Virus record (IMG/VR): IMGVR_UViG_3300003886_000016
Span: 1 to 38,632 of that record
Direction: 5' to 3' (one strand)
DNA: 38,632 nucleotides
Origin: a virus
Within the stretch, counting starts at the first letter, position 1. Each line of letters begins with the position of its first letter. The notes beneath the pieces are model-generated. The model did not search any database. It saw nothing but the letters and a program-made list of their open reading frames with translations, and was not told where the DNA came from. Of the stretch, positions 11,332 through 38,632 are shown piece by piece. A program made the translations under genes and the position numbers.

Positions 11332-11613
11332 ATGGTAACTAGTCGCAATCCGCTGTATAAAATAGTTCGGCAGTTATATTCTGCCGACCCGGAAACTCCA
11401 CTAGCTGACATCTCTCGTCAATACAATATCAACAGAAATACATTAGCTGGGTGGGTATCAGATTATCGCAAAAAGATAATAAAAAGACGGGGCAAAAATA
11501 AAGCGGCGGAAATAAAAAAATTAGCAAACATCCGCAAATGCCTGAAATGTCATCGAGCGTTCGAACTCGAGCAGAATTACTACAGATGTGGACGCTGTCG
11601 AGCTGCGGATTGA
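11332..11613 (+). CDS. HTH plus zinc-ribbon protein (93 aa), candidate late regulator
   Basis: First gene of the late arm; ATG 11332 has AGGA upstream. Residues 20-45 (TPLADISRQYNINRNTLAGWV) form a clear helix-turn-helix, followed by a basic linker (RKKIIKRRGKNK). A C-terminal zinc ribbon has CLKC and, 16 residues on, CGRC. HTH plus ribbon is a DNA-binding design. Position at the head of the structural genes suggests a late activator or a packaging DNA-recognition factor; this is inference. The stop TGA lies within the first TTGAC late motif. Confidence 0.65.
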   Translation: MVTSRNPLYKIVRQLYSADPETPLADISRQYNINRNTLAGWVSDYRKKIIKRRGKNKAAEIKKLANIRKCLKCHRAFELEQNYYRCGRCRAAD

Positions 11614-11638
11614 CACAACACGATGACGATGCCAATTT
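11610..11638 (+). promoter_or_regulatory. Late motif copy 1 (before terminase block)
   Basis: TTGAC at 11610-11614, seven bases, then GATGACGATGC at 11622-11632, followed by CAATTT. TTGAC could act as a -35 box with the 11-mer in the spacer. It overlaps the stop codon of the HTH/zinc-ribbon gene. The same arrangement recurs at 13820 and 16813, and the 11-mer alone at 28731. Confidence 0.55.
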
Positions 11639-11644
11639 TTCGGG

Positions 11645-11800
11645 ATGAATTACAACACAGCTAAAGCCCGGAAAGTCGCAGCACACATTGCTCTGCGAGT
11701 AATGCAAGAGGCAATCAGCGCGATCAAGCAAACAATCAATACAGCACCACTACACAAACGGATCAAATGCGCAATATCAGTGCTGATGGGTAAATTCTAG
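11645..11800 (+). CDS. Small helical basic protein before terminase (51 aa)
   Basis: ATG 11645 to TAG 11798-11800, ending directly against the small-terminase ATG. The product (starts MNYNTAKARKVAAHIALRV) reads as two amphipathic helices, QEAISAIKQTIN and HKRIKCAISVLMG, and is basic. No family recognised. The ribosome site (CGGG next to the ATG) is weak. Immediate adjacency to the terminase genes suggests a DNA-packaging accessory, without direct evidence. Confidence 0.5.
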   Translation: MNYNTAKARKVAAHIALRVMQEAISAIKQTINTAPLHKRIKCAISVLMGKF

Positions 11801-12190
11801 ATGGCAAAACGAGGCAGGCCAACTCTCTACAATGATGCTGTCACAAACGAGATATGCAGCCGCCTCTCCTCCGGTGACTCATTGATTACAATCTGCAAAG
11901 ATAAGCACATGCCCGTAATTGAGACTGTGCGAACATGGCTGGGGCAGGAAGATAAGCAGGATTTTACTGTACGCTACGCGCGCGCCAGACAGGAGCAGGC
12001 CGACCATTACGCTGACGAAATGCTAGCAATAGCAAGGGATGAGCCGGATGTGAACAGGGCTCGGCTACAGATTGATACACGAAAATGGATTGCATCAAAG
12101 CTCAAGCCGAAGAAGTATGGCGACAAAATTACGCAGGAGCACACTGGCAACATTGCAGTAATCATAAGCAGCACCGATAACGAGCTATAA
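11801..12190 (+). CDS. Terminase small subunit (129 aa)
   Basis: Begins AKRGRPTLYNDAVTNEICSR, the usual opening of a phage small-terminase family. An HTH-like segment (SLITICKDKHMPVIETVRTWL) for DNA recognition follows, then RYARARQEQADHYADEMLAIA, a helical oligomerisation region, and RKWIASKLKPKKYGDK near the C terminus. It should recognise the packaging site and regulate the large subunit. Starts one base after the previous stop. Unusually, two short genes separate it from the large subunit. Confidence 0.88.
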   Translation: MAKRGRPTLYNDAVTNEICSRLSSGDSLITICKDKHMPVIETVRTWLGQEDKQDFTVRYARARQEQADHYADEMLAIARDEPDVNRARLQIDTRKWIASKLKPKKYGDKITQEHTGNIAVIISSTDNEL

Positions 12191-12197
12191 ACAGGGT

Positions 12198-12326
12198 ATG
12201 TTAGGGTATCAAGAGCATGCTAAAAGCCCCGTAGCGGCGATTCTATGGCTTCGATTGTTGCACGTACTGCGGCGGAATAAGACCAAAACGCTACATTCAC
12301 GCAAAATAGGCATAAACAATGGATAA
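12198..12326 (+). CDS. 42-residue basic ORF between terminase genes
   Basis: ATG 12198 to TAA 12324-12326, overlapping the start of the following HTH gene by 8 bases. The product has a hydrophobic stretch (VAAILWLRLLHVL) followed by a basic tail (RRNKTKTLHSRK). It fills the gap between two real genes. AGGG lies too close to the ATG for a normal site, so translation is uncertain. Confidence 0.4.
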   Translation: MLGYQEHAKSPVAAILWLRLLHVLRRNKTKTLHSRKIGINNG

Positions 12327-12495
12327 TCTGATAGTCGAGCTGGGCATCACAAGAGCGCGGGCAGGACGGTATTTGGGGGTAAATCGAGCTACGATCACGC
12401 GCTGGTGCAAGACGGGTGCGCCTGTGCATGTGATAAAGCATTTTGAGCTGCTGGCAGGATACAAAGCCGCGCTCGATGCTGTCCGGAAAGCGTGA
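12319..12495 (+). CDS. Small HTH protein between terminase subunits (58 aa)
   Basis: ATG 12319; the stop TGA (12493-12495) overlaps the large-terminase GTG as GTGA, a coupling signal. LGITRARAGRYLGVNRAT followed by ITRWCKTGAP is a good helix-turn-helix of the short Cro/'carph' kind seen in phages. Being inside the terminase operon and coupled to it, it could be a packaging-site recognition factor or a regulator of its own operon. Clear fold pattern; role inferred. Confidence 0.7.
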   Translation: MDNLIVELGITRARAGRYLGVNRATITRWCKTGAPVHVIKHFELLAGYKAALDAVRKA

Positions 12496-13823
12496 AACTC
12501 ACACCCAAGCAAACAGAGGCCAACAAACTCCTGGCAGGAGACGCGACAAACTGCATGTTGTTCGGCGGCTCAAGGTCTGGCAAAACATTTCTCTGCGTCA
12601 GGGCTATCATCATACGCGCTATCAATGCGCCGTTCTCACGTCACTGCATATTCCGGTTCCGGTTCAATGCGGTCAAAGCGTCGGTCGGTATGGATACGCT
12701 GCCCAAGGTGTTCAAGCTATGTTTCCCGGACATTGAGTACACGCTGGACAAGACCGACTGGCGGTTCACGCTGACGAATGGCTCAAGTATCATCCTAGGC
12801 GGCCTGGACGATAAAGAGCGGACCGAGAAAATTCTCGGACAAGAGTTCGCTTCAATCTATTTCAATGAGTGCAGCGAGATCGGCAAGAGCGCGAGAGACA
12901 CTGCTATGACCCGGCTGGCGCAATGCTGCGGACGGACGGACGGCGGGCAGCTCAAGCTTAAAGCCTATTACGATTGCAACCCACCATCCAAGGCGCATTG
13001 GTCATATAGTGTGTTTCTCCTCAGGCAGGAGCCAACAACGAAAAAACCGCTGGACGCTACGGACTACGTTTCAATGCTCATTAACCCGGCTGATAACGTT
13101 GATAACCTGCCCGCTGGATACATTGATAAACAACTCAAATCACTCCCGACCCGGAAACGCAACAGATATCTATCGGGCATATGGGCTGACGCTACTCAAA
13201 ATGCGCTATGGACTGATGAGATAATAGATAGGTGGCGGGAGTCTGGTGAGCTGCCGGATTTACAGAGGATTGTTGTAGGGGTTGACCCATCTGGGGCAAG
13301 CGAATCAGATGCAAGCGAGCATGACGCTATCGGGATCGTTGTCGGGGGGCTTGGCGTGGATGGCAACTGCTACATATTAGAAGATGTTACAGTGTCCGGA
13401 GGCCCTGCAACGTGGGGCAAGGTAGCTGTCAGCGCATTTGAGCGGCATGATGCTGACGCGATTATAGGAGAGAGTAATTACGGCGGAGCAATGGTTGAGC
13501 ACGTCATCCAGACCTCAAGCGACAAGCGCATATCGTACAAGTCGGTTACGGCTACAAGGGGTAAGGTTGTTCGAGCCGAACCAATATCAGCACTGTACGA
13601 GCAGGGTAAGGTCAGGCATGCCGGGGTATTTGGGAGTTTGGAGGAGGAACTGTGTGCATTCTCTACATCCGGATACACTGGCGAGGATTCTCCGAACAGG
13701 GCTGACGCATTGGTGTGGGTGGTCACAGAGCTATTTCCCGGGATCGTAAAGCCACGAAAACAGCGGAAGAAGCATCAGGGCAGGCCTCGGCGGGCAAACC
13801 ACAGTACGGCATGGATGGGTTGA
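12492..13823 (+). CDS. Terminase large subunit (443 aa)
   Basis: The packaging motor: an ATPase plus nuclease that pumps DNA into the prohead and cuts it. Walker A is GGSRSGKT at residues 25-32, Walker B ASIYFNE at 120-126 with catalytic Glu. The nuclease domain opens with VVGVDPSGASE, first acidic residue Asp265. Later GESNYGGAMVE and SPNRADALVW carry further family motifs. Length is normal for short-tail phages. The GTG start overlaps the HTH stop. The P22-type head suggests headful packaging, consistent with circular permutation, but this is inference. Confidence 0.93.
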   Translation: MKLTPKQTEANKLLAGDATNCMLFGGSRSGKTFLCVRAIIIRAINAPFSRHCIFRFRFNAVKASVGMDTLPKVFKLCFPDIEYTLDKTDWRFTLTNGSSIILGGLDDKERTEKILGQEFASIYFNECSEIGKSARDTAMTRLAQCCGRTDGGQLKLKAYYDCNPPSKAHWSYSVFLLRQEPTTKKPLDATDYVSMLINPADNVDNLPAGYIDKQLKSLPTRKRNRYLSGIWADATQNALWTDEIIDRWRESGELPDLQRIVVGVDPSGASESDASEHDAIGIVVGGLGVDGNCYILEDVTVSGGPATWGKVAVSAFERHDADAIIGESNYGGAMVEHVIQTSSDKRISYKSVTATRGKVVRAEPISALYEQGKVRHAGVFGSLEEELCAFSTSGYTGEDSPNRADALVWVVTELFPGIVKPRKQRKKHQGRPRRANHSTAWMG

Positions 13824-13842
13824 CGCATGGCGATGACGACGG
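13820..13842 (+). promoter_or_regulatory. Late motif copy 2 (before portal)
   Basis: TTGAC at 13820-13824, seven bases, then GATGACGACGG at 13832-13842. It overlaps the large-terminase stop codon and lies just before the portal ATG. It differs from the other copies at two of the last three positions (CGG for TGC). The -10-like region is poor, so it may be a weaker or degenerate copy. Confidence 0.4.
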
Positions 13843-13854
13843 TTGTGTGCAGAT

Positions 13855-15861
13855 ATGACAAAGAAATCTGACGAAAAACTCCTGGAGACTGCGCGAAAGC
13901 GTTTCACAAAGGCGCAAGACCACTGGAATAATATTTTTGCGGAGTACGAGAAATGCATCCGGTTCAAGCACGGTGAGCAGTGGGAAGAGGAGGAGAAAAA
14001 AGGCCGCGATGAAGACCAGAGGCCTTCACTTGTGTTCAATCGTATTGCTGGACATGTAAACCACATAGTTGGAGAACAACGACAGAACAGACCGGCTATT
14101 AAAGTACTGCCGGTCGAGAACGCAGATGATGAAGCGGCAGACATACGCAGTGGCATAATCAGGATGATCGAGGCGGCAAGTGATGCAGAAGAAGCATACG
14201 ATACTGCATTCGAGGCATCATTATCCGGTGGAATTGGCGCATTCAGAATTAACATTGATTATTCCGATGATGACACATTCACACAAGATTTACGAATTGA
14301 CACGATTCCAAACCCTCTAACAGTTGCTATTGATCCAGCTTCAAAGAAAGCCGCTGGTTCAGATAAGATGTGGGCGTTTGTTTCCGAGAAGATGTCAAGG
14401 GAGACATTCAAGGAACGCTGGCCGGGAAAGCCTGTCCCATCAGCGGGATTAGGAAACGACTGGAAAGACTGGATTGAAAAGGACGAAGTTCGTGTAGCAG
14501 AGTATTGGTATAAAGAGCCAGCAAAGAAAACACTACTACTGATGTCAGATGGTTCGACTCTGGACGCTGACGAAATGGTAAAGGATCAGGAACTTGCAGC
14601 ACAAGTCCAAGCGCAGGGGCTAACAATTCATCACGAGCGTGTAGTCAAGACTCATACTGTAAAGAAAGCACTGATTGCGGGGAACATCATACTGGAGCAG
14701 CACGATTGGCCGGGCAAAGATATTCCCATCGTCATGGTATATGGTCGCATGGAATGGGTGGACGGTAAGCGCACGGTTGATTCAATCATCAAGAATGCAA
14801 TGGATCCTCAAAGGCTACTCAACTATTTAAGGTCGCAGGAAGCGGAATCGCTGGCACTGGCACCTAAATCCCCGTGGTTGGTTACGGCTGAGATGGTGGA
14901 CGGCTTTGAAGACGAATGGACAGATGCGTCAGTCAAGAATAGGGCAGTTCTCACTGTAAATCAGACCGATGCAGGCATGCCACAGCGACAGGCCCCTGTA
15001 ACGGTACAGACCGGATATGAAGCCGCCGCAGCGCAAATGATTGATGAGATTAAAGCGGCTACAGGACAATATGATGCATCATTAGGCTCGCAGTCGAACG
15101 AGACAAGCGGTCGAGCGATTATCGCAAGACAAAGACAGGGCGAATCATCCACATTTGAGTTCATTGATAATCTATCACGCTCGATTGCATACGGTGGGCG
15201 GATACTAATTGATCTGATACCCAAGGTTTATTCATACCAGCGCGTGATGAGGGTTCTTGGTGAGGATGGCGACTCAAAAGAAGTTACTGTAAACGAGCAG
15301 AAGCCTGACGATGAGACGGGTGAGATAGTCAAGTTCAATGACGTTACAGCAGGCAAGTTCGATGTTTCAGTGACTACAGGGCCATCATACGCCACGCAGA
15401 GAGTCGAAGCGGCTGATTCAATGATGCAGTTCATCAAGTCCGTCCCCGGATCGGCACAGGTTGTCGCAGACCTTATTGCACGGAACATGAACTGGCCGGG
15501 AGCGCAGCAGATTGCAGACAGGCTCAAGAAGATGTTGCCACCGGGCATTGATGGTGACGAGAAGAACAGTCCGGAAGATCAACAGATGCAGCAACAGATG
15601 CAGCAGCTACAACAGCAGAATGATCAACTCATGCAGGCATTGAACGATATGCAGCATAAGCAGGCCGTTGAAGTCGCCGGGCTGGACATAAAGGAATATG
15701 ACTCGGAAACAAAACGATTGCAGGCCGTGGAGAACGTTCCGGGAATTGAAACAATGATCCAGCAAGTAGTTGCAAGAATGATGCAGGGTTTGGGGCAGCA
15801 GACCATGCAGCCTCTACCACAAGAACAGCCACAACCACAACAACCCCAAGGAGCCATGTAA
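13855..15861 (+). CDS. Portal protein, P22 gp1-like (668 aa)
   Basis: Forms the dodecameric ring at one capsid vertex through which DNA enters and leaves. The size, an N-terminal KSDEKLLETARKRF helix, VFNRIAGHVNHIVGEQRQNRP, the ATGQYDASLGSQSNETSGRAI segment (split here at natural bounds) and the Gln-rich C-terminal coiled coil fit the P22-type portal family. The last 30 residues are Gln/Pro-rich. ATG 13855 is preferred over TTG 13843. The scaffold ATG follows the stop directly. Confidence 0.9.
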   Translation: MTKKSDEKLLETARKRFTKAQDHWNNIFAEYEKCIRFKHGEQWEEEEKKGRDEDQRPSLVFNRIAGHVNHIVGEQRQNRPAIKVLPVENADDEAADIRSGIIRMIEAASDAEEAYDTAFEASLSGGIGAFRINIDYSDDDTFTQDLRIDTIPNPLTVAIDPASKKAAGSDKMWAFVSEKMSRETFKERWPGKPVPSAGLGNDWKDWIEKDEVRVAEYWYKEPAKKTLLLMSDGSTLDADEMVKDQELAAQVQAQGLTIHHERVVKTHTVKKALIAGNIILEQHDWPGKDIPIVMVYGRMEWVDGKRTVDSIIKNAMDPQRLLNYLRSQEAESLALAPKSPWLVTAEMVDGFEDEWTDASVKNRAVLTVNQTDAGMPQRQAPVTVQTGYEAAAAQMIDEIKAATGQYDASLGSQSNETSGRAIIARQRQGESSTFEFIDNLSRSIAYGGRILIDLIPKVYSYQRVMRVLGEDGDSKEVTVNEQKPDDETGEIVKFNDVTAGKFDVSVTTGPSYATQRVEAADSMMQFIKSVPGSAQVVADLIARNMNWPGAQQIADRLKKMLPPGIDGDEKNSPEDQQMQQQMQQLQQQNDQLMQALNDMQHKQAVEVAGLDIKEYDSETKRLQAVENVPGIETMIQQVVARMMQGLGQQTMQPLPQEQPQPQQPQGAM

Positions 15862-16632
15862 ATGACAGATGAACAATTGATTAAAGAGCCGACCGAAGAG
15901 CCGATTGATACAGTTAAGCCGACCGAAGAACCGGAAGCCGAGCCAGAGGCAGAAGAAACCGAAGAGCCGACAGAGGCACCGACCGAAGAGCCGAACGAAG
16001 CCCATGTATCCCGCTCCCAGAAGCGCATCGCTGAATTAGTCCGACAGCGTGAGGAAGCGCAGCGCAGGGCAGGAGAGCTTGAATCACAACTCGCCAAACA
16101 TGAAGACAAAGACGCCCCGAAAGAAGCCGACTTCGATTCATACGAAGACTATACCCACGCACTGGTCAAGCATGAAACCACAGAAATATTACGTGAAGAG
16201 CGCAAGGCACAAGCGTTATCACAGCGGGAACAGGATGCTGATCTCGCGTTAAAGCAGTTTGAAGCAAGGGCGGAGAATGGCCGCAAGAAGCATGATGACT
16301 TTGATAAAGTGGTCGGCAATCCAGACCTGCCAATCACTAATGATATGCTGGCAATCATGGCTGACTCCGATGCAGGCGATGAGGTGGCATATTATCTCGG
16401 GAAGAACGAGGCTGAGACAAGGCGTTTAGCAATGATGCCGCCTGCAATGATGGGGCGTGAGATGGCTCGCATTGAAATGAAGTTGTCCGAGCAGCCAAAG
16501 CCTGCATTACCTAACCCGGTGGATACGGGATCTACACTTTCCGGCACCGGTGAGTCTGCAACAGTGGATGAATCAAAGATGTCAACGGAAGATTATATCG
16601 CTCACAGAAGGGCGAAGATGTCAGGGGGCTGA
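15862..16632 (+). CDS. Scaffold-like protein (256 aa)
   Basis: Very acidic N terminus with repeated TEEP/TEAP units, then a long charged helix (SQKRIAELVRQREEAQRRAGE) and a C-terminal part rich in Met, Ala and Asp. An acidic, coiled-coil protein between portal and coat is the position and look of the scaffolding protein that shapes the prohead and leaves before DNA packaging. AAGGAG lies upstream. Sequence is not conserved across scaffolds, so the call rests on place and composition. Confidence 0.75.
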   Translation: MTDEQLIKEPTEEPIDTVKPTEEPEAEPEAEETEEPTEAPTEEPNEAHVSRSQKRIAELVRQREEAQRRAGELESQLAKHEDKDAPKEADFDSYEDYTHALVKHETTEILREERKAQALSQREQDADLALKQFEARAENGRKKHDDFDKVVGNPDLPITNDMLAIMADSDAGDEVAYYLGKNEAETRRLAMMPPAMMGREMARIEMKLSEQPKPALPNPVDTGSTLSGTGESATVDESKMSTEDYIAHRRAKMSGG

Positions 16633-16633
16633 T

Positions 16634-16816
16634 ATGGGTTTCAAAGATGAACTTGCCCAATTTAAGAGGTCAAACCCTAAGAATAAAAAGGTTCAGGGGA
16701 TGACAGGCAAGACATATGGGGCTTCCAGACCGGGGAACCGCAAAGATGAATACATGAATACGCGCCATGCCGGTGAAGGCTATGGTGAGTGGAAGCGCCG
16801 AAAAGGGTACTCTTGA
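16634..16816 (+). CDS. Small basic protein between scaffold and coat (60 aa)
   Basis: ATG 16634 follows the scaffold stop by one base; a longer in-frame version would enter the scaffold gene. Basic and Gly-rich: ELAQFKRSNPKNKKVQGMTG, TYGASRPGNRKDEY, GYGEWKRRKGY. It may bind DNA or stabilise the shell, but no family was recognised. Its stop is part of the third late motif. Confidence 0.6.
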   Translation: MGFKDELAQFKRSNPKNKKVQGMTGKTYGASRPGNRKDEYMNTRHAGEGYGEWKRRKGYS

Positions 16817-16841
16817 CGTAAGTAGATGACGATGCCTTAAT
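16813..16841 (+). promoter_or_regulatory. Late motif copy 3 (before coat)
   Basis: TTGAC at 16813-16817, seven bases, GATGACGATGC at 16825-16835, then CTTAAT at 16836-16841. TTGACG with CTTAAT at 17-18 bases is a fair sigma70-like promoter, and the 11-mer fills its spacer. It overlaps the stop of the 60-residue gene and precedes the most highly expressed structural gene, the coat. Confidence 0.6.
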
Positions 16842-16998
16842 GGCTGTGGGTATCGCTTCCCCTCTGAAGCGGACATGGCGTAACCAAGGAACTCGCCACC
16901 TTGGAAAGAGTTGTCGCACGAACTGAATCAGTGCGCTGTTAGCGTTACCGGATGTCGCAAACCGGAAGTCAAACAAACTCAATCCAAGGAGGCCAATA
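16842..16998 (+). other. Hairpin-rich coat leader
   Basis: 157 non-coding bases. CGCTTC/GAAGCG (16854-16871, 6 bp), CCAAGG/CCTTGG (16884-16904, 6 bp) and CGCAC/GTGCG (16915-16935, 5 bp) follow one another, with CGCT/AGCG (16934-16944) as an alternative. The ribosome site AAGGAGG lies at the end. A structured leader could protect the coat message or tune its translation. Confidence 0.5.
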
Positions 16999-18201
16999 AT
17001 GGCTACGAATGCTTTATTGACCAGCGACATTATCACTAATGAAGCGTTGGCAATTCTTCACAATAAACTTTCCTTCATCGGAAAAGTCAACCGGCAGTAT
17101 GATGACAGTTATGCTATCAGTGGTGCAAAGATCGGTGATTCACTGCGAATCAGGTTACCGAATGAGTACACTGTCCGCAATGGCACGGCACTGTCTGCTA
17201 ATAACACGGTTGAAAACAGCACTATTCTTACAGTAGGAACGCAGAAGGGCGTGGATATGTCCTTCACAACCAAAGAGCTGACAATGGACATTCAGGACTT
17301 CTCTGAACGAATCATTGAACCTGCAATGTCTGTCTTGGCTGCTAATATCGAAGCTGATGCATTCAATATGTACAACGATGTTTACAATCAGGTCGGTACG
17401 CCGGGTACTACTCCTGCAACTCTCAAGGTCTTCCTGGATGCTAAGACCAAGCTGAATCAGGGTCTGTCTCCGAAAGATACCAAGCGTTGCATTCAGTTGA
17501 ACTCTGATGCGTCTGCAACTGTTGTCGATGCCTTGAAGGGTTTATTCCAGTCGTCAGGTCAGATTTCCAAGCAGTATTTGGAAGGAGTGATGGGACGTGG
17601 TGCAGGCTTTGACTGGTTCGAGAACGAACTTGTGCCTGTTCATACTACCGGCACGAACGTTGCGGCTGGTACGGTCAATGGTGCAGGGCAGACAGGTAGT
17701 TCTCTTGTTGTTGCTGCCTTAACATTGGCAGGAACGCTCACCAAGGGTACTACGTTCACTCTGGCCGGTGTAAACCGTGTCCATCCTGAAACCAAGTCGA
17801 CCTACGGTGTCTTGCAGCAATTCACCTTGACTGCCGATGTAACGGCCGATGGTGCCGGTGCAGCTACGTTGTCTATTTCTCCTGCTATTGTTGCAACAGG
17901 TGCCACGCAGAATGTTACGGGTTCTCCTGCCAACGGTGCAGCGATTGTATGGGGTAACGGTGCAGCTTCAACATCCACGCCTCAACATCTGGCCTTCCAC
18001 AAGAATGCGTTTGCGTTTGCAACTGCTGACTTGGAAATGCCTGATGGTGTGGACTTCAAAGCACGCAAGGTGTTTGACGGTATTTCAATGCGTATTGTCC
18101 GCCAGTATGACATTAACACTGACACGATTCCGTGCCGGTTGGACGTATTGTACGGGTACAAGACTATCCGTGCGCAGCTCGCAAGCCGGGTAACAGGCTA
18201 A
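16999..18201 (+). CDS. Major coat protein, P22 gp5-like (400 aa)
   Basis: The HK97-fold shell subunit of the P22 branch. N-terminal MATNALLTSDIITNEALAIL, the segment VGTQKGVDMSFTTKELTMDI, ERIIEPAMSVLAANIE and the C-terminal KVFDGISMRIVRQYDINTDT match this family. The Gly/Thr/Ala-rich middle (about 215-320) would be the inserted I-domain. AAGGAGG precedes the ATG. A strong intrinsic terminator follows 8 bases after the stop, so much coat message probably ends there. Confidence 0.93.
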   Translation: MATNALLTSDIITNEALAILHNKLSFIGKVNRQYDDSYAISGAKIGDSLRIRLPNEYTVRNGTALSANNTVENSTILTVGTQKGVDMSFTTKELTMDIQDFSERIIEPAMSVLAANIEADAFNMYNDVYNQVGTPGTTPATLKVFLDAKTKLNQGLSPKDTKRCIQLNSDASATVVDALKGLFQSSGQISKQYLEGVMGRGAGFDWFENELVPVHTTGTNVAAGTVNGAGQTGSSLVVAALTLAGTLTKGTTFTLAGVNRVHPETKSTYGVLQQFTLTADVTADGAGAATLSISPAIVATGATQNVTGSPANGAAIVWGNGAASTSTPQHLAFHKNAFAFATADLEMPDGVDFKARKVFDGISMRIVRQYDINTDTIPCRLDVLYGYKTIRAQLASRVTG

Positions 18202-18209
18202 ATAGGATC

Positions 18210-18232
18210 GGGGGCGAAAGCCCCCTTTCTTT
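18210..18232 (+). terminator. Intrinsic terminator after coat gene
   Basis: GGGGGC (18210-18215), GAAA tetraloop, GCCCCC (18220-18225), then TTTCTTTACTTT. This is a textbook Rho-independent terminator. Partial read-through would set high coat and lower tail expression. Confidence 0.92.
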
Positions 18233-18248
18233 ACTTTAAGGAGGCTCT

Positions 18249-18551
18249 ATGTTCAAAGAATATCCAAAGTGGGTTGATGGCAAACTTATTGAAACAGAAG
18301 AGGAAGAGATTGCTTTAACCGGCAATGCTACGAAAACCAAACCTGCCAAACAGCATACACAGAAAACCACGCCCTATACGCCACAGGAATACCCGAAATG
18401 GGTTGATGGCAAGCTTGTAGAAGAGGCTGGCCTTGAGGCTATGTCCAAGAAGGAACTGGAAAGCTACACATTGAAGGCATACGAAGTGGATCTTGATTTA
18501 CGGAAGAAGAAGGAAACATTGATTGCGGAAGTTGAGGCACTTGGCGGGTGA
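18249..18551 (+). CDS. Small protein with duplicated EYPKWVDGKL motif (100 aa)
   Basis: AAGGAGG precedes the ATG. The motif EYPKWVDGKL occurs at residues 4-13 and again near 47-56, an internal duplication. The C-terminal 40 residues (SKKELESYTLKAYEVDLDLRKKKE, given by its key parts) fit a HeH/LEM-like small helical domain found in phage structural proteins. It lies between coat and the gp4-like gene, so it may be a minor head protein. The next gene overlaps as GTGA. Confidence 0.65.
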   Translation: MFKEYPKWVDGKLIETEEEEIALTGNATKTKPAKQHTQKTTPYTPQEYPKWVDGKLVEEAGLEAMSKKELESYTLKAYEVDLDLRKKKETLIAEVEALGG

Positions 18552-19234
18552 CTGCAACCGCATCTGTAATAATCAATTCTGCATTGCGCCGTTTGCGCGT
18601 ATTGCAGGCAGGTGAGCAGCCTGATGCCACGGAGTCAGCTGATGCGCTGCAATCCTTGAATGATTTGCTTGGAACGCTGTCTATCGAAAAACTGTTCGTC
18701 CCGCAAACAACGAATGAAACGTTTAACCTGACGGTAGGAAAACAGACTTACACCATAGGCACGGGCGGAGATTTCAACACTGGAAGGCCTATAAGCATAT
18801 CCAAGGCATATACGACCATTCTGGACGTTGACTATCCGTGCGAGGTGATACCACGCAAGAAATGGCTGGGTATCGTCTATAAAAAGACTTCCTCCTCATA
18901 TCCGTATTGGTTGAATTATCACGATACTTCACCTCTGGGTGTTATCGAGTTTTATCCTATACCTACAGATGCTTCCACGTTCACTATGGATTCAATCAAG
19001 CAGTTGACGGAGTTTACAGCACTCAACACTCCTACTGACTTGCCGAAGGAATACGAACGCTATTTGAAATTTGCGTTGGCAAATGACCTTGGTCCCGAAT
19101 ATGGAAAAGCACTGACACCTGCTGACTACACAGTAATGAATCGTATGTATCGACGGATAAAGGATAACAACCATGAACCTCTGGATGTCAGGGTGTTCGG
19201 CCCCCGCCGCCGCTATGACATATTCACTGACTGA
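18548..19234 (+). CDS. Tail accessory/head completion protein, P22 gp4-like (228 aa)
   Basis: GTG 18548 overlaps the stop before it. Opening TASVIINSALRRLRVLQAG, ESADALQSLNDLLGTLSIEKL and YERYLKFALANDLGPEYG are typical of gp4-type head-to-tail adaptors, which bind under the portal ring and start tail assembly. In P22 gp4 also has muramidase activity; I see no basis to claim it here. Followed by the gp10 homologue as in P22. Confidence 0.88.
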   Translation: MTATASVIINSALRRLRVLQAGEQPDATESADALQSLNDLLGTLSIEKLFVPQTTNETFNLTVGKQTYTIGTGGDFNTGRPISISKAYTTILDVDYPCEVIPRKKWLGIVYKKTSSSYPYWLNYHDTSPLGVIEFYPIPTDASTFTMDSIKQLTEFTALNTPTDLPKEYERYLKFALANDLGPEYGKALTPADYTVMNRMYRRIKDNNHEPLDVRVFGPRRRYDIFTD

Positions 19235-19236
19235 TT

Positions 19237-20640: not shown

Positions 20641-21002
20641 GCGTCCCGCACCCACAATATAGCGATGTTGCCACAGAAAGCGGGGATTTTACTCTGTTCT
20701 GGAGGGATTGGCTTCAACGTGTATACCAAGCTATCGGGCTGGTGAATACGCTTTACATGGCTATTCAGGCGCACACGTTCACTGCTATAGCAGCAGGCGC
20801 AACGCAGACTATGAATGTCACCATAAAAGGCACAAGAGCGAATGACGATGTTACCCTTGGCTTGGGGGTGATAGATGCAGGGCTTGTGTATCAGGCGCAT
20901 GTAAGCGCGAATGATACGGTAACGATTGTATGCACGAATACCACGGCAGGGTCGATTACTCCGACCGCGGGGAATATCAGGGTAACAGTGAGGACGTTTT
21001 GA
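20637..21002 (+). CDS. Small virion protein with beta-sandwich C terminus (121 aa)
   Basis: ATGA overlap with the gp10 homologue, which sets the start. The N-terminal helix (FTLFWRDWLQRVYQAIGL) is followed by a Thr/Val/Ala-rich beta domain (TFTAIAAGATQTMNVTIKG, VTIVCTNTTAGSITP). The position is where P22 encodes the tail needle, and a helix plus knob architecture would suit a short tail plug or needle tip, but the length is small and no needle coiled coil is seen. Function is a guess. Confidence 0.6.
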   Translation: MSVPHPQYSDVATESGDFTLFWRDWLQRVYQAIGLVNTLYMAIQAHTFTAIAAGATQTMNVTIKGTRANDDVTLGLGVIDAGLVYQAHVSANDTVTIVCTNTTAGSITPTAGNIRVTVRTF

Positions 21003-21358
21003 TAACAGCCATTGAACCAACGATAGAAGCTATCCAGAGGCTCGCCAGCGATAGAACGGGCGCGATAGGTGAAGATGAACTTGCTCAAATGGCATTCACC
21101 GGTCAGTGCAGCATTGTGGCTATTGATGACCACACGATAATGGCCGTATGTTCAAAGGGCGGTGAGTTATGGGTCTTAGCAGTGAATGGCGGAGCAGAAG
21201 GGTGGATAGCAGAGGCGAATGAATGGCTTGATGAAACGGCAAAGACAGAAGGATTACCATCAATAAGGTTTATGGGGCGCAATGGATGGGTAAAGGCGCT
21301 TAAAGATTTCGGCTACCGTCAGGCTGGCGTGGTCATGGTTAAGGAGATTTCAACATGA
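20999..21358 (+). CDS. GNAT-like virion-module protein (119 aa)
   Basis: TTG 20999 overlaps the previous stop as TTGA and has GAGG about 7 bases upstream. The C-terminal part (ANEWLDETAKTEGLPSI, then GRNGWVKALKDFGYRQAG, VVMVKEIS) fits the acetyltransferase-like proteins found just before injection proteins in podoviruses; T7 gp13-type proteins are similar. Whether it is enzymatically active is doubtful because the acetyl-CoA loop (Q/RxxGxG/A) is not visible. Stop overlaps the next start as ATGA. Confidence 0.65.
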   Translation: MITAIEPTIEAIQRLASDRTGAIGEDELAQMAFTGQCSIVAIDDHTIMAVCSKGGELWVLAVNGGAEGWIAEANEWLDETAKTEGLPSIRFMGRNGWVKALKDFGYRQAGVVMVKEIST

Positions 21359-22587
21359 GCGGATTAGTAAAATCATTCAAAAATCCATTAAAGTCTATTA
21401 CGCATTTGGTAAAGAACCCATCAAGTGCGATTGTGCCGAAGGGAATAAGGAACTCGTCTGCTTACAAAAACATTGCAAGACCGGTTATTAAGGTTGGAGT
21501 AGGCGCAGCAGTCGGATTCGTTGCAAGCGGTTTTAATCCGGCAGGGGCTATCGCGGGTGGCGTTACATCGGCAATCGGCGGAGGTCTTACCAATAATGCA
21601 TTCCGCCCATTGCCAAATCTTGTTGGCCCGGCTGTTGTCGGAGCGGGATTAAATCCCACAGTACAGAATGCCGCCGCCGGTCTCTTTGGTCAAACAGGCC
21701 CAGGTGCAGGCGCAAGCGCATCTTCTGCATATTCGCAAGCTGTCGCGGCAGGGTCAAGTCCGGCATCGGCAGCGCAAATAGCCGTAGGTCAGGCAAGCGC
21801 GAATGCTATCGGCACAGGTTCGACTTTAGGGCAGGGCGTAGCAGGCGGCTTGAACTATCTAGTTAACGGCGGGATTGGTTCCTCTGTGTTAAGCGGAGGG
21901 AAAGCATTGCTCGGCGGCGGGTCAGGCGGCTTGCTCAATACGCTTGGGCAGATCGGCGGGGCTGTCTATAGCTCAAGTCAGGCAAGGCGGGCAGCACAGA
22001 TACAGGCTGATGCAGCAGCAGCAGCGAACAAGACACAGTGGGCTATGTTCAACCAGAACCGTGCTGACATTGCTCCGTGGCAGGCTGTTGGTGAATCATC
22101 CCTTGGTCAGTTGGGGGCGGAGACTCTTGGGCCAAATGCGCCATTAACAAGGGCTTTCGGCACAGCAGATTTCCAAGCTGATCCCGGTTACCAGTTTAGA
22201 AAATCGGAAGGCCAGAAAGCTATCGACCATCAGCTTGGTTCTATTGGCATGCACAATTCTGGACAATCGGTAAAAGAGGCCGCAAGGTTTAATCAGGACA
22301 TAGCGAATCAAGCATATCAGGGTGCATACAATCGTTTCAATTCTGACCAGACGAACAGGTTCAACAGACTTAATTCTCTTTCAGGAACGGGTGTAAACGC
22401 AGCCGGAAGGATCGCAGGTCTTGGTGCAAATGCAGCGTCCAATTCATCGAATATCACGCTTGCAAACGGGCGCGCACAGGCCAATGGCCGGATAAACTCA
22501 TCGAATGCGTACCTGAATGCCCTGAATAACATCCAAGGAATCAGCGCACAGAATAATCAGTTGAACAGATTAGGAGGTGTAATCTAA
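21355..22587 (+). CDS. DNA-transfer/injection protein (410 aa)
   Basis: The N-terminal 200 residues are Gly/Ala-rich and hydrophobic (VGVGAAVGFVASGFNPAGAI and more), suited to membrane insertion. The C-terminal half has DPGYQFRKSEGQKAIDHQL, NSGQSVKEAARFNQDIANQ and AYNRFNSDQTNRFNRLNSL, a signature of phage internal proteins that leave the head and help DNA cross the envelope (role of P22 gp7/gp20/gp16). The next gene starts in TAATG. Confidence 0.8.
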   Translation: MSGLVKSFKNPLKSITHLVKNPSSAIVPKGIRNSSAYKNIARPVIKVGVGAAVGFVASGFNPAGAIAGGVTSAIGGGLTNNAFRPLPNLVGPAVVGAGLNPTVQNAAAGLFGQTGPGAGASASSAYSQAVAAGSSPASAAQIAVGQASANAIGTGSTLGQGVAGGLNYLVNGGIGSSVLSGGKALLGGGSGGLLNTLGQIGGAVYSSSQARRAAQIQADAAAAANKTQWAMFNQNRADIAPWQAVGESSLGQLGAETLGPNAPLTRAFGTADFQADPGYQFRKSEGQKAIDHQLGSIGMHNSGQSVKEAARFNQDIANQAYQGAYNRFNSDQTNRFNRLNSLSGTGVNAAGRIAGLGANAASNSSNITLANGRAQANGRINSSNAYLNALNNIQGISAQNNQLNRLGGVI

Positions 22588-23357
22588 TGCCAGTCAACGC
22601 CGGACTACTTAACGGGCTAAATCGCCAAACACGGATTACTACGCCGGATAAGCTTGGCATGGAAGCGCAAACACAGAATATCCTTGCCTCGCGCCAGAGA
22701 ATGAAACACCAGCAAAATGTTGATGCACAGAACGCAATTACAGCGAAGAATACGGAAATGGACGCTGAACAAAAAGCATCTCTTGAGGCTATGGGGCGGA
22801 TATATAAGGTCGAACAGGGGTGGGTGAGTAAATACACGAAGGACGGTATGGACGAGCAGACGGCCAATCAGCAGGCTATTACAACAGTCTCCCCCTATGC
22901 ACAGCAAGAGCTTGACCACCATAACAAGAGGTTCGGAACGAAATACACGATCAATGACGTGAATCAGGCTCGCGCTCCAATGCAACAGATAATGACTGGA
23001 TACGAACAGAAAATGGCCTTACAGAAGCAGAAGTCTTCGGCTGCTATGAAGCGCACGAAATACACCACTGACCATAAAGGCGGTGGAACTGCAACGCACC
23101 AGACTACGAATGGCCCAATGAAAACATCCCGGTTAATAAGCATCTGGAAAACGGAAACGCACCAGACCGGAAATATAAGCAATGCAGAGACGATGTATTA
23201 CATGAGACACCCCAACGAGAAACCAACAACCCCATCAGGGGCTAAGTTTCTCGAATGGTGGAAGCAGTCAGACCTTAATCCGAAGGCGAAAAAGCCGCAG
23301 GCTACATCTGCAATGCAGACTTCTGCTAAGAATATGGGCTTGACCATACTAAAATGA
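22587..23357 (+). CDS. Probable internal virion protein (256 aa)
   Basis: TAATG overlap with the injection protein. Gln/Asn/Lys-rich and mostly helical (QTQNILASRQRMKHQQNVD, AITAKNTEMDAEQKASLEAM). A long charged coiled-coil-like first half and a flexible Thr/Lys-rich second half suit an internal core protein. No family name. Overlaps the giant protein as ATGA, so the three ejected proteins form one coupled unit. Confidence 0.65.
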   Translation: MPVNAGLLNGLNRQTRITTPDKLGMEAQTQNILASRQRMKHQQNVDAQNAITAKNTEMDAEQKASLEAMGRIYKVEQGWVSKYTKDGMDEQTANQQAITTVSPYAQQELDHHNKRFGTKYTINDVNQARAPMQQIMTGYEQKMALQKQKSSAAMKRTKYTTDHKGGGTATHQTTNGPMKTSRLISIWKTETHQTGNISNAETMYYMRHPNEKPTTPSGAKFLEWWKQSDLNPKAKKPQATSAMQTSAKNMGLTILK

Positions 23358-26300
23358 AAGCAGTTGATTCACAGGGATTCCAATACTCATTCGCCAAAGG
23401 AGGGTGGCATCCAACGCTTGCTAAGGATGCTGGCGGCAACCTTTTCAAGTACCATGAAGGCAATGATGAATGGACACCTGCGACCACTGAACCGCAGCAG
23501 CCAAGTGTTGCAGACGTGCTATCGACCCCGGTTCAAAACATGGTTGATTATTACGGGAATAAAGATGCTAATGCGAATAGCAATATCCCTAATTCTAACG
23601 CACCTACTGATACGCTCAGTACAAATGTTGCTCCGGGCGATGGGCTTAATCATGTAGATACAAGGGGCGGATTCGACACACAGCAATCAAGTGTGCCTGA
23701 TGCGTTTCTTCCCAATGCTGACGGTTCTATACCTTCCCCGTTCCAGCCAAAACCGCAGCCACAACAGCAGCCGGAAGATCCTCTTACCCACGGCATTAAG
23801 ATGATGTATGCAGGTTATATGTCTAGCGGTGCGGGGACAGCCCATGATGCAGCCAACTTTGCGGCTATCACATCGAAGATTATCCAGAAAACAACGGGTA
23901 TGAATGAGAAGAATGCCGCCGATGCCGCTCAAGTGTTTTTCAGGGAGCAGGAAAAGGCCATGGCAACCGGCATTGAGCCGAACACAATCCCTGACAAGAT
24001 AAACTATGCCGTTGGAGCTGTTCCCGGTTACATTGCACGTTTGCTTGCTCTTGGACAGGGCAAGATTGGAATGGCTGGCGCGATGGCAGTGGAGGGAGGT
24101 TTATCGGAATCAGACAAAGGTTTCATTCCCGCACTTGAAGGCGCAGCAAGAGGCGCGCTGACAGGGATAGGGCTTGGTGCGGCGGGAGCACTTGCTCCGG
24201 TAGCAAGGACAGCGGCTAGCGCAGCCGTAGGCGCGGCAGCCGACCCGCAAGACCCTGTAGGAGGTGCAGTCACGATGGGCGTGCTTGGCGGGGTTATGGG
24301 AGGCAAGGGTGGCAGGACTACCCTCGGCGTACTCAAGGACGCTAAGGACGCATACGTTGACCCTGTGAAGGGTGCGGCAAAGGAATCAATCAAAACTAAG
24401 TTTGCTCCTACGCATGGAGAAGCATTACTCACGCCGAATGATACCAATGGTAAACAATTTGATAAGAGTGCGTTCGATTCCAAGGCAGAGAAAGGCCTTG
24501 TTGCGCTCGCAAAGAAAGAGAAATTAACAGCACCGGAATCAAGGGAATACGAACACCTTGCAAGATACTTTGGCAGCGATACACAAGCCATTCTTGACAG
24601 GTATGGTATTCCCAAGACTACGGAAGCCCCGAAGCCCCAAGAGGCTACCCAAGCACCTAAACAGACTGAACCGCCCGTTAAGGCTGACACCACACCCTCC
24701 AGCCCACCTGAATACAAGCTAACAGCGGCCAAGAAGGTGCGTGCATTCAAGACAATAGAAACAGCGCAGAAGATGGCAGGCTCGACGCATGAAGTCGTTG
24801 ACCACCCTGACAAGAAAGGAATGTATGCGCTAAAGAAAAAGGAGCAACGCATCGCCACGCCCGTAACTGAAAGCCAAGTCCCTTCCCCATCGGAACAAGG
24901 TGATGCCGGAGTAGCGCCCGGTCGGGCTGGTGGTGTGCCTGAAAACACTTCTCTAAATCGTATTGCAGAGAGATATACGCAAATTGCTGATCAGGCTGGA
25001 AAGCACATGCCGTTCGCCATTGCCATGAAGAATGCACGCGCATTGAAGGATGCTATTGAGCATGGCACATGGACAGACTTGCTTCATCCTGACAACAAAG
25101 TTTCGCGTCATATCTTCACTGAAATTACCGGAGTGAAACTCCCACTGACAGTTAAGGGGACAAGGGAAGCAGTAGCGAATGTCATAAAAACAGAATCTCC
25201 TGAAAAGCCAGCGCAAAAAACAAATGAGCGAAACCCTGCAAACGCTTCACGGGCACCGGAGGGGAAGGCAAAGCGTAGTCCTGCCAATGCCAGTGAAGGC
25301 ACTGCCAGCGAAGTTCCAGACCACCACATATCACCGGAGGGGTTGAAACTCCATGAACTTGTTGAACTCAACAGGCTCCTGACTGGCTCGAACCCGCGGG
25401 CGAAGAGCTTGCGAGCTTCGTTGCATGGTTATATGAGGGGAAGGCAGGTTGTCATTAGTAGAGACTTGGCAGCAGACCCTAAGCAGGCATTGAAGACACT
25501 CGCCCATGAGATAGGCCATGTTATCGGCTGGATAGATGGTGAATCACTGAAACTGGGGAACATTCTCGGACACGTGGCGAATATCGGGAAGTACATGAAG
25601 CATTACATGGAATCGTCACCCAATGCAAAGGAAGGAATACTCACACCGGATGATATACGCAGGCTGAAATCAGAAGCCAAGAACCTTGCAAAGCTTGGTG
25701 CTGAACGCTTACTTGATAAGCACCTAAAGCATGACTATAAGGTTACACCTAAAGACATAATGGATATATGGAACTCTGTAGATAATAGCGACATACCCGG
25801 GCTGGCAGATTATATAAAGAGGCTTCCAACAAGAGAGAAGAAGGCAATTATAGTCTCTGCCATGAAGGGGATGGTTCCTGAACAGGTCAAGGCAATCGTG
25901 CGCGCAGCTAATGATATGGAGGCTAAGGTTAAGCCTGATGGTTCAGATATGAACTGGCATGACACGTTTACCATGTTACTCAAGGATGAAATAGCACGCC
26001 GGAGGCTGTTCAGCAGAGACACAATGATGAATGAACTAAAGGCCGTCACAATGGAATGGAACCCCTTTACAAGGGGCAAGGACGCAAGCTATGACAAGTA
26101 TCGGGATAAACCAGCAGAGTTGTATGCAGATGCGTTAAGCATGTATTTTAATAACCCTGAGATGCTTGCTCGTATGGCTCCGGAGTTCTGGCGTGGATTC
26201 CAAGCGTATGCGGATAGAAGACCCAAGGCGATGTTTGCCATAAGGAAAGTATTAAAAGCCCGTGGCATGTCTCTTGATAGGCTACAGCAGCATATTGAGA

Positions 26301-28735
26301 AGGGTTTTGCTATTGCCGAAGAGAATAGGAATAGCGAACACGAAAGGGTAAAACGACTATCTTCCATATCCTTAAAGGATATTAAGCATGCTGTTTTCGA
26401 CAGGTATGCGCCTATCCTTGACCTTGTTTCTCAAGTGTCTATAAAAGACGGAAAGAACCCTGCTTTTGCCATTGAAGCCTTAACGCATGTTAACACACGC
26501 AACGAAGGGTATCTTGCTGCATTTACCCGGGCGTTTATGAAACTCAATCCCGATGATAAGGTGATAAGGAAAATAGGACTTTACATGCTTTCCGAGCGGG
26601 TGCTTGGTGAGCATAAGGCTGGCAATGACAGGTTTGCAGTCGGCGGCATAGAACACGAGCAGGCGGTGAAAATCATTGCGGGTATTGATAAGGAATACCC
26701 TGATGTAAAAGCTTTTACGAAAGAATACAGAAAGATACGGCAAGAATGGATAATGGATGTTATGAAGAAGTCCGGCCTGTATTCCAAATCCATGCTTAAA
26801 TCATTTGAGCGTGAGGAAGGACATTACGCCACATTCAAGAATGCTGCATTTATTGATGCGATGGATAAGCTATATACAGGAGGGCAGGTAAGGGCGCATA
26901 TTAAACAAAGGCTTGGCAGCTTTGGTGCGATCGAGAACCCGCTAATGGCAACGCTTGCGCAAGACATAACCATGCTTGTGGCAGCAGAAAGGAATCATGT
27001 TGTTAGAAAAACAGTTGATATGTTGAAGGAGCATTTCAAGGACGCTATTGAACCTGCCTCAATAGCGTGGAATGGTAAGAAAAGAACCTTCACGGAAACG
27101 CACCCTAAAGCTGATAAACAACTTGTTCTATTTATGGAAGATGGGAGGGAGCGCGGATTTTATGTAAGTAGGGATATTGCCAGAGCATTGAAAGATCCCA
27201 AGAGGCACGATGATCTTAATGTGTTTGTTAATTTTCTGGCAACAAAGCTGGGGCGTGCGGTCAAGGTTTTGTTCACAGAAGCAAACCCCGGCTTCTGGGT
27301 GAGAAATGTAATAAGGGATTACGCAAGGGCCGCTACCAATTTACCCGGTGCGAATGCTGTAACGCTAGCTCCTTATGCCTTGAAGGCAATCAGGCAATCT
27401 CTAAAGAGTGGATTCGGCAAAGATTCACCACTTATCGAGAAGATGCTTAAAGACTACGAGCTTATTTCTGTAGCGGATTACCGATCACTGAATGAGCAGG
27501 ATGGGCAGCTATTCAGGCTATTGGCACGTTTCCATGTATCGCCAAGCGACTTGAGTAAGCCGAAGTCAATAAAGGGAAAGACAGCGAAATATGCTAAGAA
27601 GGCATGGTTCTACTATTCAGGCGTAGCAAGAGGGCTTGAACGAATACCCAAGGTGGCAGGACGCATGTATCTGGCCGCTAAACGTCCTGATATGTCACCT
27701 GAAATGAGGCGGCATATCCTACTGGGGCAGGTGGGTTCCCCTGACTTCTTACGTGCCGGAAGTGAGATGCACACATACAATAGCATCCTGTTATTCGGTA
27801 ATGCTATCAAGGAAGGAATAAGATCGGACATTGAGGTTATCCGCGATAGGCCGGTGGATTATTTCTTCAATGCTTTCACTCTTACATATCTTCCGCGCAT
27901 GGCTATGTTAATGACTGCCGCCGGATTCTTCGGCGACGATAGAAAAGCAATCATGCAGGAGCAGACCACCTATGATAAACAAAATTACACCCTGATCCCT
28001 GTAGGCGTTACAGAGAAAGGTGAAGGTGTCGCAATATCGCTTGCGCTCGACCCTATGCAGAAGTTTCAAGCCAACCTATTCGAAGGTATCTGGCGCGGAA
28101 TGACAACAGGCGATAAAAAAGAGTTCCTGAAATCTATGGGAACCACGTTTGCGACGGAATTACCGGGCTTCACTCCGGTGATGGGAATTTGGTGGGATAT
28201 AGGTTCATTTATTGAAAACCAACAGCAGTTAGATTATCGCGGTCGTCCTATCTACAGCCGTGCCGCGCTCGCGCAGGCTCCGGTTGATTCAAGCAAGCAA
28301 TGGGTAGAGTTCTTAACGCACTTATGGAACACTTATGGTGGTTCAATGCTTATGCGTATTCGCAATTCGGATATGGAAGGTGACAAATCAAAACTTGATA
28401 GGGCACTTGGGATACCGCTTCTTGGCGGTGTTGGCAGAGCCGTTTTATCAATTGCCAATTATGGCAAGACGCAAACTGCAAGCAAGGCTATAGCGAAAGT
28501 TTCCGCCATAGAGTCTCTTTCCAATTCCAGACTACGGAAAGCCATTATAAACATATTGGAAGGTAAAGACACGCCAGCAGACGAGCAGGTAATCATGAAC
28601 TCTCCTGCAACTGATACGAGAAGGATAATGAAAGCTATATCATTGAGTAAGTCGCCGCCTTTGGAGCGATTGCTGTATAAGATAAGGAATGATCCGAAGA
28701 AGGTTAATGCAGCACTCAAAGCATTAGGTAGATGA
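23354..28735 (+). CDS. Giant polyvalent ejected protein with metalloprotease motif (1793 aa)
   Basis: Fills the place of P22 gp16. The N-terminal 110 residues are Asn/Pro/Gln-rich and flexible; about 210-320 is Gly/Ala-rich and hydrophobic, likely membrane-active. A zinc-metallopeptidase motif HEIGH lies at 718-722, with a possible third ligand in AELYADALSMYF near 920. Near 1312-1326, NPGFWVRNVIRDYARA fits the large-polyvalent-protein domain LPD38. Such polyvalent proteins are injected with phage or plasmid DNA and are thought to counter host defences or act on the envelope. The stop codon lies inside the fourth late-motif copy. Domain calls are by eye. Confidence 0.82.
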   Translation: MKAVDSQGFQYSFAKGGWHPTLAKDAGGNLFKYHEGNDEWTPATTEPQQPSVADVLSTPVQNMVDYYGNKDANANSNIPNSNAPTDTLSTNVAPGDGLNHVDTRGGFDTQQSSVPDAFLPNADGSIPSPFQPKPQPQQQPEDPLTHGIKMMYAGYMSSGAGTAHDAANFAAITSKIIQKTTGMNEKNAADAAQVFFREQEKAMATGIEPNTIPDKINYAVGAVPGYIARLLALGQGKIGMAGAMAVEGGLSESDKGFIPALEGAARGALTGIGLGAAGALAPVARTAASAAVGAAADPQDPVGGAVTMGVLGGVMGGKGGRTTLGVLKDAKDAYVDPVKGAAKESIKTKFAPTHGEALLTPNDTNGKQFDKSAFDSKAEKGLVALAKKEKLTAPESREYEHLARYFGSDTQAILDRYGIPKTTEAPKPQEATQAPKQTEPPVKADTTPSSPPEYKLTAAKKVRAFKTIETAQKMAGSTHEVVDHPDKKGMYALKKKEQRIATPVTESQVPSPSEQGDAGVAPGRAGGVPENTSLNRIAERYTQIADQAGKHMPFAIAMKNARALKDAIEHGTWTDLLHPDNKVSRHIFTEITGVKLPLTVKGTREAVANVIKTESPEKPAQKTNERNPANASRAPEGKAKRSPANASEGTASEVPDHHISPEGLKLHELVELNRLLTGSNPRAKSLRASLHGYMRGRQVVISRDLAADPKQALKTLAHEIGHVIGWIDGESLKLGNILGHVANIGKYMKHYMESSPNAKEGILTPDDIRRLKSEAKNLAKLGAERLLDKHLKHDYKVTPKDIMDIWNSVDNSDIPGLADYIKRLPTREKKAIIVSAMKGMVPEQVKAIVRAANDMEAKVKPDGSDMNWHDTFTMLLKDEIARRRLFSRDTMMNELKAVTMEWNPFTRGKDASYDKYRDKPAELYADALSMYFNNPEMLARMAPEFWRGFQAYADRRPKAMFAIRKVLKARGMSLDRLQQHIEKGFAIAEENRNSEHERVKRLSSISLKDIKHAVFDRYAPILDLVSQVSIKDGKNPAFAIEALTHVNTRNEGYLAAFTRAFMKLNPDDKVIRKIGLYMLSERVLGEHKAGNDRFAVGGIEHEQAVKIIAGIDKEYPDVKAFTKEYRKIRQEWIMDVMKKSGLYSKSMLKSFEREEGHYATFKNAAFIDAMDKLYTGGQVRAHIKQRLGSFGAIENPLMATLAQDITMLVAAERNHVVRKTVDMLKEHFKDAIEPASIAWNGKKRTFTETHPKADKQLVLFMEDGRERGFYVSRDIARALKDPKRHDDLNVFVNFLATKLGRAVKVLFTEANPGFWVRNVIRDYARAATNLPGANAVTLAPYALKAIRQSLKSGFGKDSPLIEKMLKDYELISVADYRSLNEQDGQLFRLLARFHVSPSDLSKPKSIKGKTAKYAKKAWFYYSGVARGLERIPKVAGRMYLAAKRPDMSPEMRRHILLGQVGSPDFLRAGSEMHTYNSILLFGNAIKEGIRSDIEVIRDRPVDYFFNAFTLTYLPRMAMLMTAAGFFGDDRKAIMQEQTTYDKQNYTLIPVGVTEKGEGVAISLALDPMQKFQANLFEGIWRGMTTGDKKEFLKSMGTTFATELPGFTPVMGIWWDIGSFIENQQQLDYRGRPIYSRAALAQAPVDSSKQWVEFLTHLWNTYGGSMLMRIRNSDMEGDKSKLDRALGIPLLGGVGRAVLSIANYGKTQTASKAIAKVSAIESLSNSRLRKAIINILEGKDTPADEQVIMNSPATDTRRIMKAISLSKSPPLERLLYKIRNDPKKVNAALKALGR

Positions 28736-28747
28736 CGATGCTATATT
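28731..28747 (+). promoter_or_regulatory. Late motif copy 4 (before tailspike)
   Basis: GATGACGATGC at 28731-28741 followed at once by TATATT (28742-28747), a fair -10 box. The upstream TTGAC of the other copies is absent here. The motif again overlaps the stop codon of the gene before. The tailspike ribosome site AAGGAG follows 10 bases later. Confidence 0.5.
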
Positions 28748-38225: not shown

Positions 38226-38632
38226 TCTTGAACCTCTGCCTTAATCCTCTTCAAATCAGTTTTGATCGCTTCAAGATATGGCATTGCCTCTTCGATAAAT
38301 TCGGCTTCGTTGTCAAAGTATCCAGCTTTATATTTACGCTCAAAAGAGGCAACCGTGTATTTCTCACAGCCGATCTCCATGCACATGGAGATCGGCCCTT
38401 TGCGTTTTGCGACATAAGCAAGGATGAAATATTTAAGATGTGATAAATATATAATCCTTGATCCTATGTTTTTCCCTAAATGCAAATCCGCTGAACGCAA
38501 ATCCGCGAAATGCAAATTCGCTGAACGCAAATCCGCTGAACGCAAATCCGCTGAACGCAAATCCGCTGAACGCAAATCCGCTGAACGCAAATCCGCTGAA
38601 CTCAAATCCGCTGAACGCAAATTCGCTGAACG
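38222..38632 (-). CDS. Pentapeptide-repeat protein, C-terminal part
   Basis: Right-end part of the gene starting at 274 (see the entry at 1-274). The frame is open to the window edge and joins the left part exactly when 38542-38632 is treated as a duplicate of 1-91. After the last repeats (including one variant unit with Phe at 38497), a C-terminal domain of about 85 residues follows: HLGKNIGSRIIYLSHLKYF, PISMCMEIGCEKYTVASF and EFIEEAMPYLEAIKTDLKR. Similar C-terminal domains accompany phage pentapeptide proteins. Function unknown. Confidence 0.85.
   Translation of the reverse strand, partial: RSANLRSADLSSADLRSADLRSADLRSADLRSADLRSANLHFADLRSADLHLGKNIGSRIIYLSHLKYFILAYVAKRKGPISMCMEIGCEKYTVASFERKYKAGYFDNEAEFIEEAMPYLEAIKTDLKRIKAEVQE
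38482..38632. repeat. 15-base tandem repeat array, right part
   Basis: Ten units of the same 15-mer as at 1-135; the last six plus one base (38542-38632) duplicate the first 91 bases of the window. The unit at 38497 is degenerate (cgcgaaat). These are coding pentapeptide repeats. Copy number at the join cannot be fixed from this sequence. Confidence 0.95.

Follow-up and report, generated by a model that had tools for sequence, protein, structure and literature searches.

The coat gene of this phage probably forms a transcription unit of its own, consisting of a promoter at 16813 served by the host polymerase, a folded leader that hides the coat Shine-Dalgarno sequence, the coat gene itself and an intrinsic terminator; we place the probability of this account as a whole at about 60%. 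Host RNA polymerase with a sigma70-type factor would start at 16813, using TTGAC, a spacer of 17 bases, a TGC extended -10 and the hexamer CTTAAT. The dedicated unit would run from this promoter through a leader of about 150 nt and the coat gene to the terminator, yielding a message for the coat alone alongside transcripts that read through from upstream. On that message the leader segment CCUUGGA would pair with the Shine-Dalgarno segment, so that translation of the coat is probably restrained as long as the helix stays closed. A probably weaker promoter of the same type would lie at 11610, ahead of the terminase block. We infer promoter activity, start points and translational control alike from sequence.

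The window, i.e., the full 38,632-nt virus record, encodes a phage gene set comprising a P22-type coat, an Sf6-type small terminase, a large terminase, a portal and a scaffold, and no known phage similar to it at the DNA level was found. Positions 1-141 and 38482-38632 are arrays of the 15-mer GCAAATCCGCTGAAC in 9.4 and 10.1 copies respectively, and the window ends overlap by 91 identical bases; a circular or permuted contig, cut inside one tandem array of GCAAATCCGCTGAAC, is the probable explanation.

The probable coat promoter and its close relatives

The coat protein, a P22-type major head protein, is encoded at 16999..18201 on the plus strand. Used as a probe against viral contigs, it retrieved three close relatives, L004, L005 and L006, with 86, 86 and 83% coat identity, the next being at 58%; the portal as a probe found none. 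The candidate promoter upstream (site 3; 16813..16841, plus strand) reads TTGACG-17-CTTAAT and has a homologous core in two of the relatives: in the alignment, L005 has TTGACA-17-ATGAAT and L004 has TTGACA-18-ATGAAT. TGC precedes the last hexamer in all three phages, while the remaining spacer differs and GATGACGA, the spacer sequence that recurs in the window, is absent from the coat promoters of both L004 and L005. Thus, with TTGAC, TGC and an A/T-rich -10 kept and the spacer changed, it is the promoter core that is conserved and not the proposed activator site. The TTGAC contains the stop codon of the preceding gene in both the window and L005, despite different upstream genes. In the window an ORF of 60 aa (16634-16816) is inserted between the scaffold and the coat promoter; it has no counterpart in L005 and none among the viral contigs.

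Measured against the sigma70 consensus, the -35 TTGACG is close to the TTGACA that L004 and L005 have exactly, and the 17-base spacer with TGn before the -10 agrees with the 16-18 bases and TGn of an extended -10 promoter, as do the spacer and TGC of both relatives. The -10 itself departs from TATAAT at the important second base, and the relatives have ATGAAT. A simple sigma70 score, computed on both strands over 77,194 positions with hexamer frequencies that are our own approximations, ranks 16813 tenth, 11610 57th, 13820 846th and 28719, upstream of the fourth motif copy, 2132nd. Many positions reach promoter-like scores by chance, and a consensus promoter scan, which returned 15 sites in the window versus 23 in shuffles, did not list 16813. 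The site at 16813 is likely to be a sigma70-type extended -10 promoter that opens a dedicated coat unit.

The predicted coat leader and terminator

The predicted message would begin with a structured 5' leader (16848..16998, plus strand; start placed from the -10), which is conserved in L004 and L005. Its folding comprises hairpins, including CGCAC...GUGCG, and a long helix in which CCUUGGA (16899-16905) is predicted to pair with UCCAAGG at the coat Shine-Dalgarno. This predicted helix, hiding the ribosome site, is conserved in the three phages, with pairing probabilities of 1.0, 1.0 and 0.61. The mean openness of the Shine-Dalgarno is 0.18, 0.14 and 0.31 versus 0.44, 0.47 and 0.39 in shuffled leaders, an effect that is clear in two phages and weak in L004. 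In the proposed structure 92% of cells are paired, against 33-45% when it is slid. Five pairs have changed on both sides, all of them in the first hairpin, and the helix over the Shine-Dalgarno is nearly invariant; as only three sequences have the leader, this covariation is thin. Fold energies are modest (z -1.8 for the window and -1.0 for L005). A switch between an upstream CCAAGG and CCUUGG could form in the window and L004, and not in L005; hence, we do not claim it.

A covariance model of the leader scores 153-171 bits for the window, L004 and L005, the same three sequences from which it was built, and finds nothing comparable elsewhere in 71 sources; the leader pattern occurs across viral contigs only in those of L004 and L005, and the leader matches no Rfam family. 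Beyond this clade, among annotated and contig coat relatives, the gaps between scaffold and coat are mostly short (3-60 bases in most), and in the more distant coat relatives examined both the leader and a promoter of the 16813 type are absent. The search for prophage relatives gave a single distant one without the leader, and searches for papers on capsid-gene leaders turned up no close case.

At the other end of the unit, a strong intrinsic terminator (GGGGGCGAAAGCCCCC followed by TTTCTTT; 18210..18232, plus strand) stands after the coat gene. Its stem has changed bases and kept pairing in the window, L004, L005 and L006, and more distant relatives have similar stems after the coat.

The other copies of the motif

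The sequence-only reading of this DNA had noticed an 11-mer recurring at module starts and had interpreted it as belonging to a late promoter specific to the phage, whose spacer would hold an activator site. The positions themselves are as it gave them. GATGACGATGC is found exactly at 11622, 16825 and 28731 on the plus strand, and GATGACGACGG, a copy with two mismatches, at 13832. TTGAC-N7-GATGACGA is exact at 11610, 13820 and 16813, making the upstream TTGAC a property of three of the four sites (numbered 1 to 4 for 11610, 13820, 16813 and 28731), and it is absent from the other strand. The overlap with the stop codon of the preceding gene likewise holds at all four, the TGA being inside TTGAC at sites 1-3 and inside GATGAC at site 4. 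The two -10-like hexamers it had pointed out are present, at site 3 (CTTAAT) and site 4 (TATATT) only, and the latter is without a -35.

As promoters these sites are not equivalent: the promoter claim holds up well at 16813, with its score, relatives and coat unit, possibly at 11610, and weakly at 13820 and 28731. Site 1 (11610..11638, plus strand) reads TTGACA-17-CAATTT, with GATGACGATGC at the spacer end so that its TGC takes the extended -10 position, and overlaps the stop of the 11332 gene; it is a plausible candidate promoter by these features. An ORF of 51 aa (11645-11800; MNYNTAKARK...), missed by a 60-aa ORF list, lies ahead of the small terminase and begins at the predicted +1 of site 1. 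L005 has an equally placed, clear homologue of it (at 16118 of the full contig), ahead of which there is a candidate TTGAAA-17-CATTAT with TGG and no motif. Site 2 (13820..13848, plus strand), between the terL stop and the portal start, reads TTGACG-17-TTGTGT with GATGACGACGG in the spacer; it is a poor match and a weak promoter candidate. Site 4 (28731..28747, plus strand), which is GATGACGATGC followed by TATATT with no -35, overlaps the stop of the gene for a 1793-aa protein, and the start predicted from it falls inside the tailspike Shine-Dalgarno; it too is a weak candidate. Neither Pfam nor PHROG gives a confident match for the 1793-aa late protein (23354-28735), and L005 lacks a counterpart; a phage RNA polymerase gene was not found among the larger proteins scanned, the 1793-aa protein being without a confident family.

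Sites 1 and 2 (11610-11645 and 13820-13855) have identical geometry, with 31 bases from stop to start and 35 from TTGAC to ATG. If they are promoters, transcription would be expected to begin exactly at the AUG of the following gene (11645 and 13855), and no Shine-Dalgarno is visible before either. Of the four sites, site 3 alone leaves room for an ordinary leader. Two other common functions were considered and rejected: a shared RNA hairpin (the folds differ, z -0.4 to +1.6), and short upstream ORFs from the motif ATGs (4-13 codons long, lacking both a Shine-Dalgarno and a common reading).

Alternative explanations and known systems

Could the repeat be merely chance, helped by gene ends being rich in TGA and ATG? 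The earlier estimate, that such an 11-mer should occur far less than once, does not stand: Markov-simulated sequences of the window's composition average 1.1-2.0 11-mers that occur at least three times on the same strand, compared with eight in the window. Three-copy 11-mers are thus to be expected at this length, and the estimate went astray because one chosen 11-mer was tested where any would have drawn notice. Matches to GATGACGATGC with two mismatches also barely exceed shuffles (21 in the window vs 13.2). Against chance stand the exact TTGAC-N7 partner at three sites and the placement of the copies: GATGACGATGC is the sole 11-mer in at least three of the windows around 42 plus-strand gene ends, and 0 of 1500 matched sets of non-gene stop triplets yield any such 11-mer; a 5-N(0-15)-8 dyad occurs in 0 of 300 control stop-triplet sets. 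The gene-end test was framed after the motif had been seen and is therefore supportive rather than decisive. Hence, the recurrence at gene ends is mildly unexpected, the repeat is probably not a pure accident, and we consider chance with gene-end composition unlikely.

The same recurrence above controls, and the fact that the late strand carries all four sites, would favour a regulator private to this phage that binds GATGACGA in the spacers of several late promoters. The candidate activator had been the small HTH/four-cysteine protein at 11332..11613 (plus strand). This protein has only sub-threshold matches to transposase-type HTH models (HTH_Tnp_1 and HTH_28), no recognisable match to the Ogr/Delta or Mu C late-activator families and no PHROG match, and no relative of it is detectable in L005, phage records or viral contigs. 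That it and the motif are both missing from L005 agrees with a private pair. However, GATGACGA occurs neither in the corresponding L004 and L005 promoters nor elsewhere in their contigs, GATGACGATGC is absent from L004, L005 and L006, two of the four sites are poor promoters, and the Mu activator does not bind within a 17-base spacer (PMC4461284). Across 2.9 million viral contigs, TTGAC-N7-GATGACGATGC has 31 matches, every one within a long ORF; an N8 control matches 15 contigs versus 31 for N7, an excess that probably reflects codon phase, with 12 bases between the two parts. No match thus lies at a non-coding position of the viral contigs, and the relatives lack the motif, an outcome that the sequence-only reading had itself named as counting against its proposal. 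A late promoter with an activator site in the spacer is not supported: where close relatives allow a comparison, at a single site, the proposal fails, and it survives as a lineage-private possibility, which we hold to be rather unlikely. Its more elaborate form, in which a fast-evolving regulator reads GATGACGA, site and 11332 gene were gained together and sites 1 and 2 give leaderless late transcripts, is quite improbable. We are equally sceptical that the motif is a short boundary sequence between gene modules, left by or used for recombination, with its promoter likeness incidental at most sites. Such boundary sequences have been proposed at phage module joints (PMC3029335), and L005 lacks a counterpart of the gene upstream of sites 1, 3 and 4 but has one, at least partly, of the gene downstream; yet joints fall at gene ends anyway, and the 60-aa and 11332 genes are not found elsewhere with the motif.

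We therefore favour the host-polymerase coat unit. Under it, the shared GATGACGATGC would be a spacer end together with an extended -10 TGC, and GATGACGA would be phage-private, a sequence that duplication or convergence most likely spread to the phage's own promoters and gene joints, and not a conserved activator site; its recurrence at gene ends suggests that this private spacer sequence may be functional. A tempting claim about a motif is thereby turned into a testable one. In a small group of phages with P22-type coats, coat seems to be transcribed as a separate unit whose folded leader covers the ribosome site, which would be a simple means to set coat output apart from that of scaffold and portal. 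The leader is outside Rfam and would count as a small, novel candidate for the control of capsid translation.

Among known systems, 16813 (and 11610 in part) resembles bacterial sigma70 extended -10 promoters in its TTGAC -35, 17-base spacer and TG one base before the -10, but the phage -10 hexamers match TATAAT partly and the spacer sequence is shared within one phage. The late promoters of P2, with their Ogr/Delta zinc-finger activators, offer a parallel in that a small cysteine-containing phage protein was proposed as late activator; Ogr sites lie near -55, and the 11332 protein matches no Ogr/Delta model and has a sub-threshold HTH only. Phage Mu likewise has several late promoters, under activator C, with a common sequence and imperfect -10 and -35 elements. 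The Mu activator site is located ahead of the -35 or overlaps it (PMC4461284), whereas in the present phage it is the spacer that carries the common sequence, and three of the sites have a -35. Finally, the predicted long-range helix over the coat AAGGAG in three phages likens the leader to translation-control leaders that hide the Shine-Dalgarno, from the known examples of which it differs in having no Rfam family and in being confined to a small clade.
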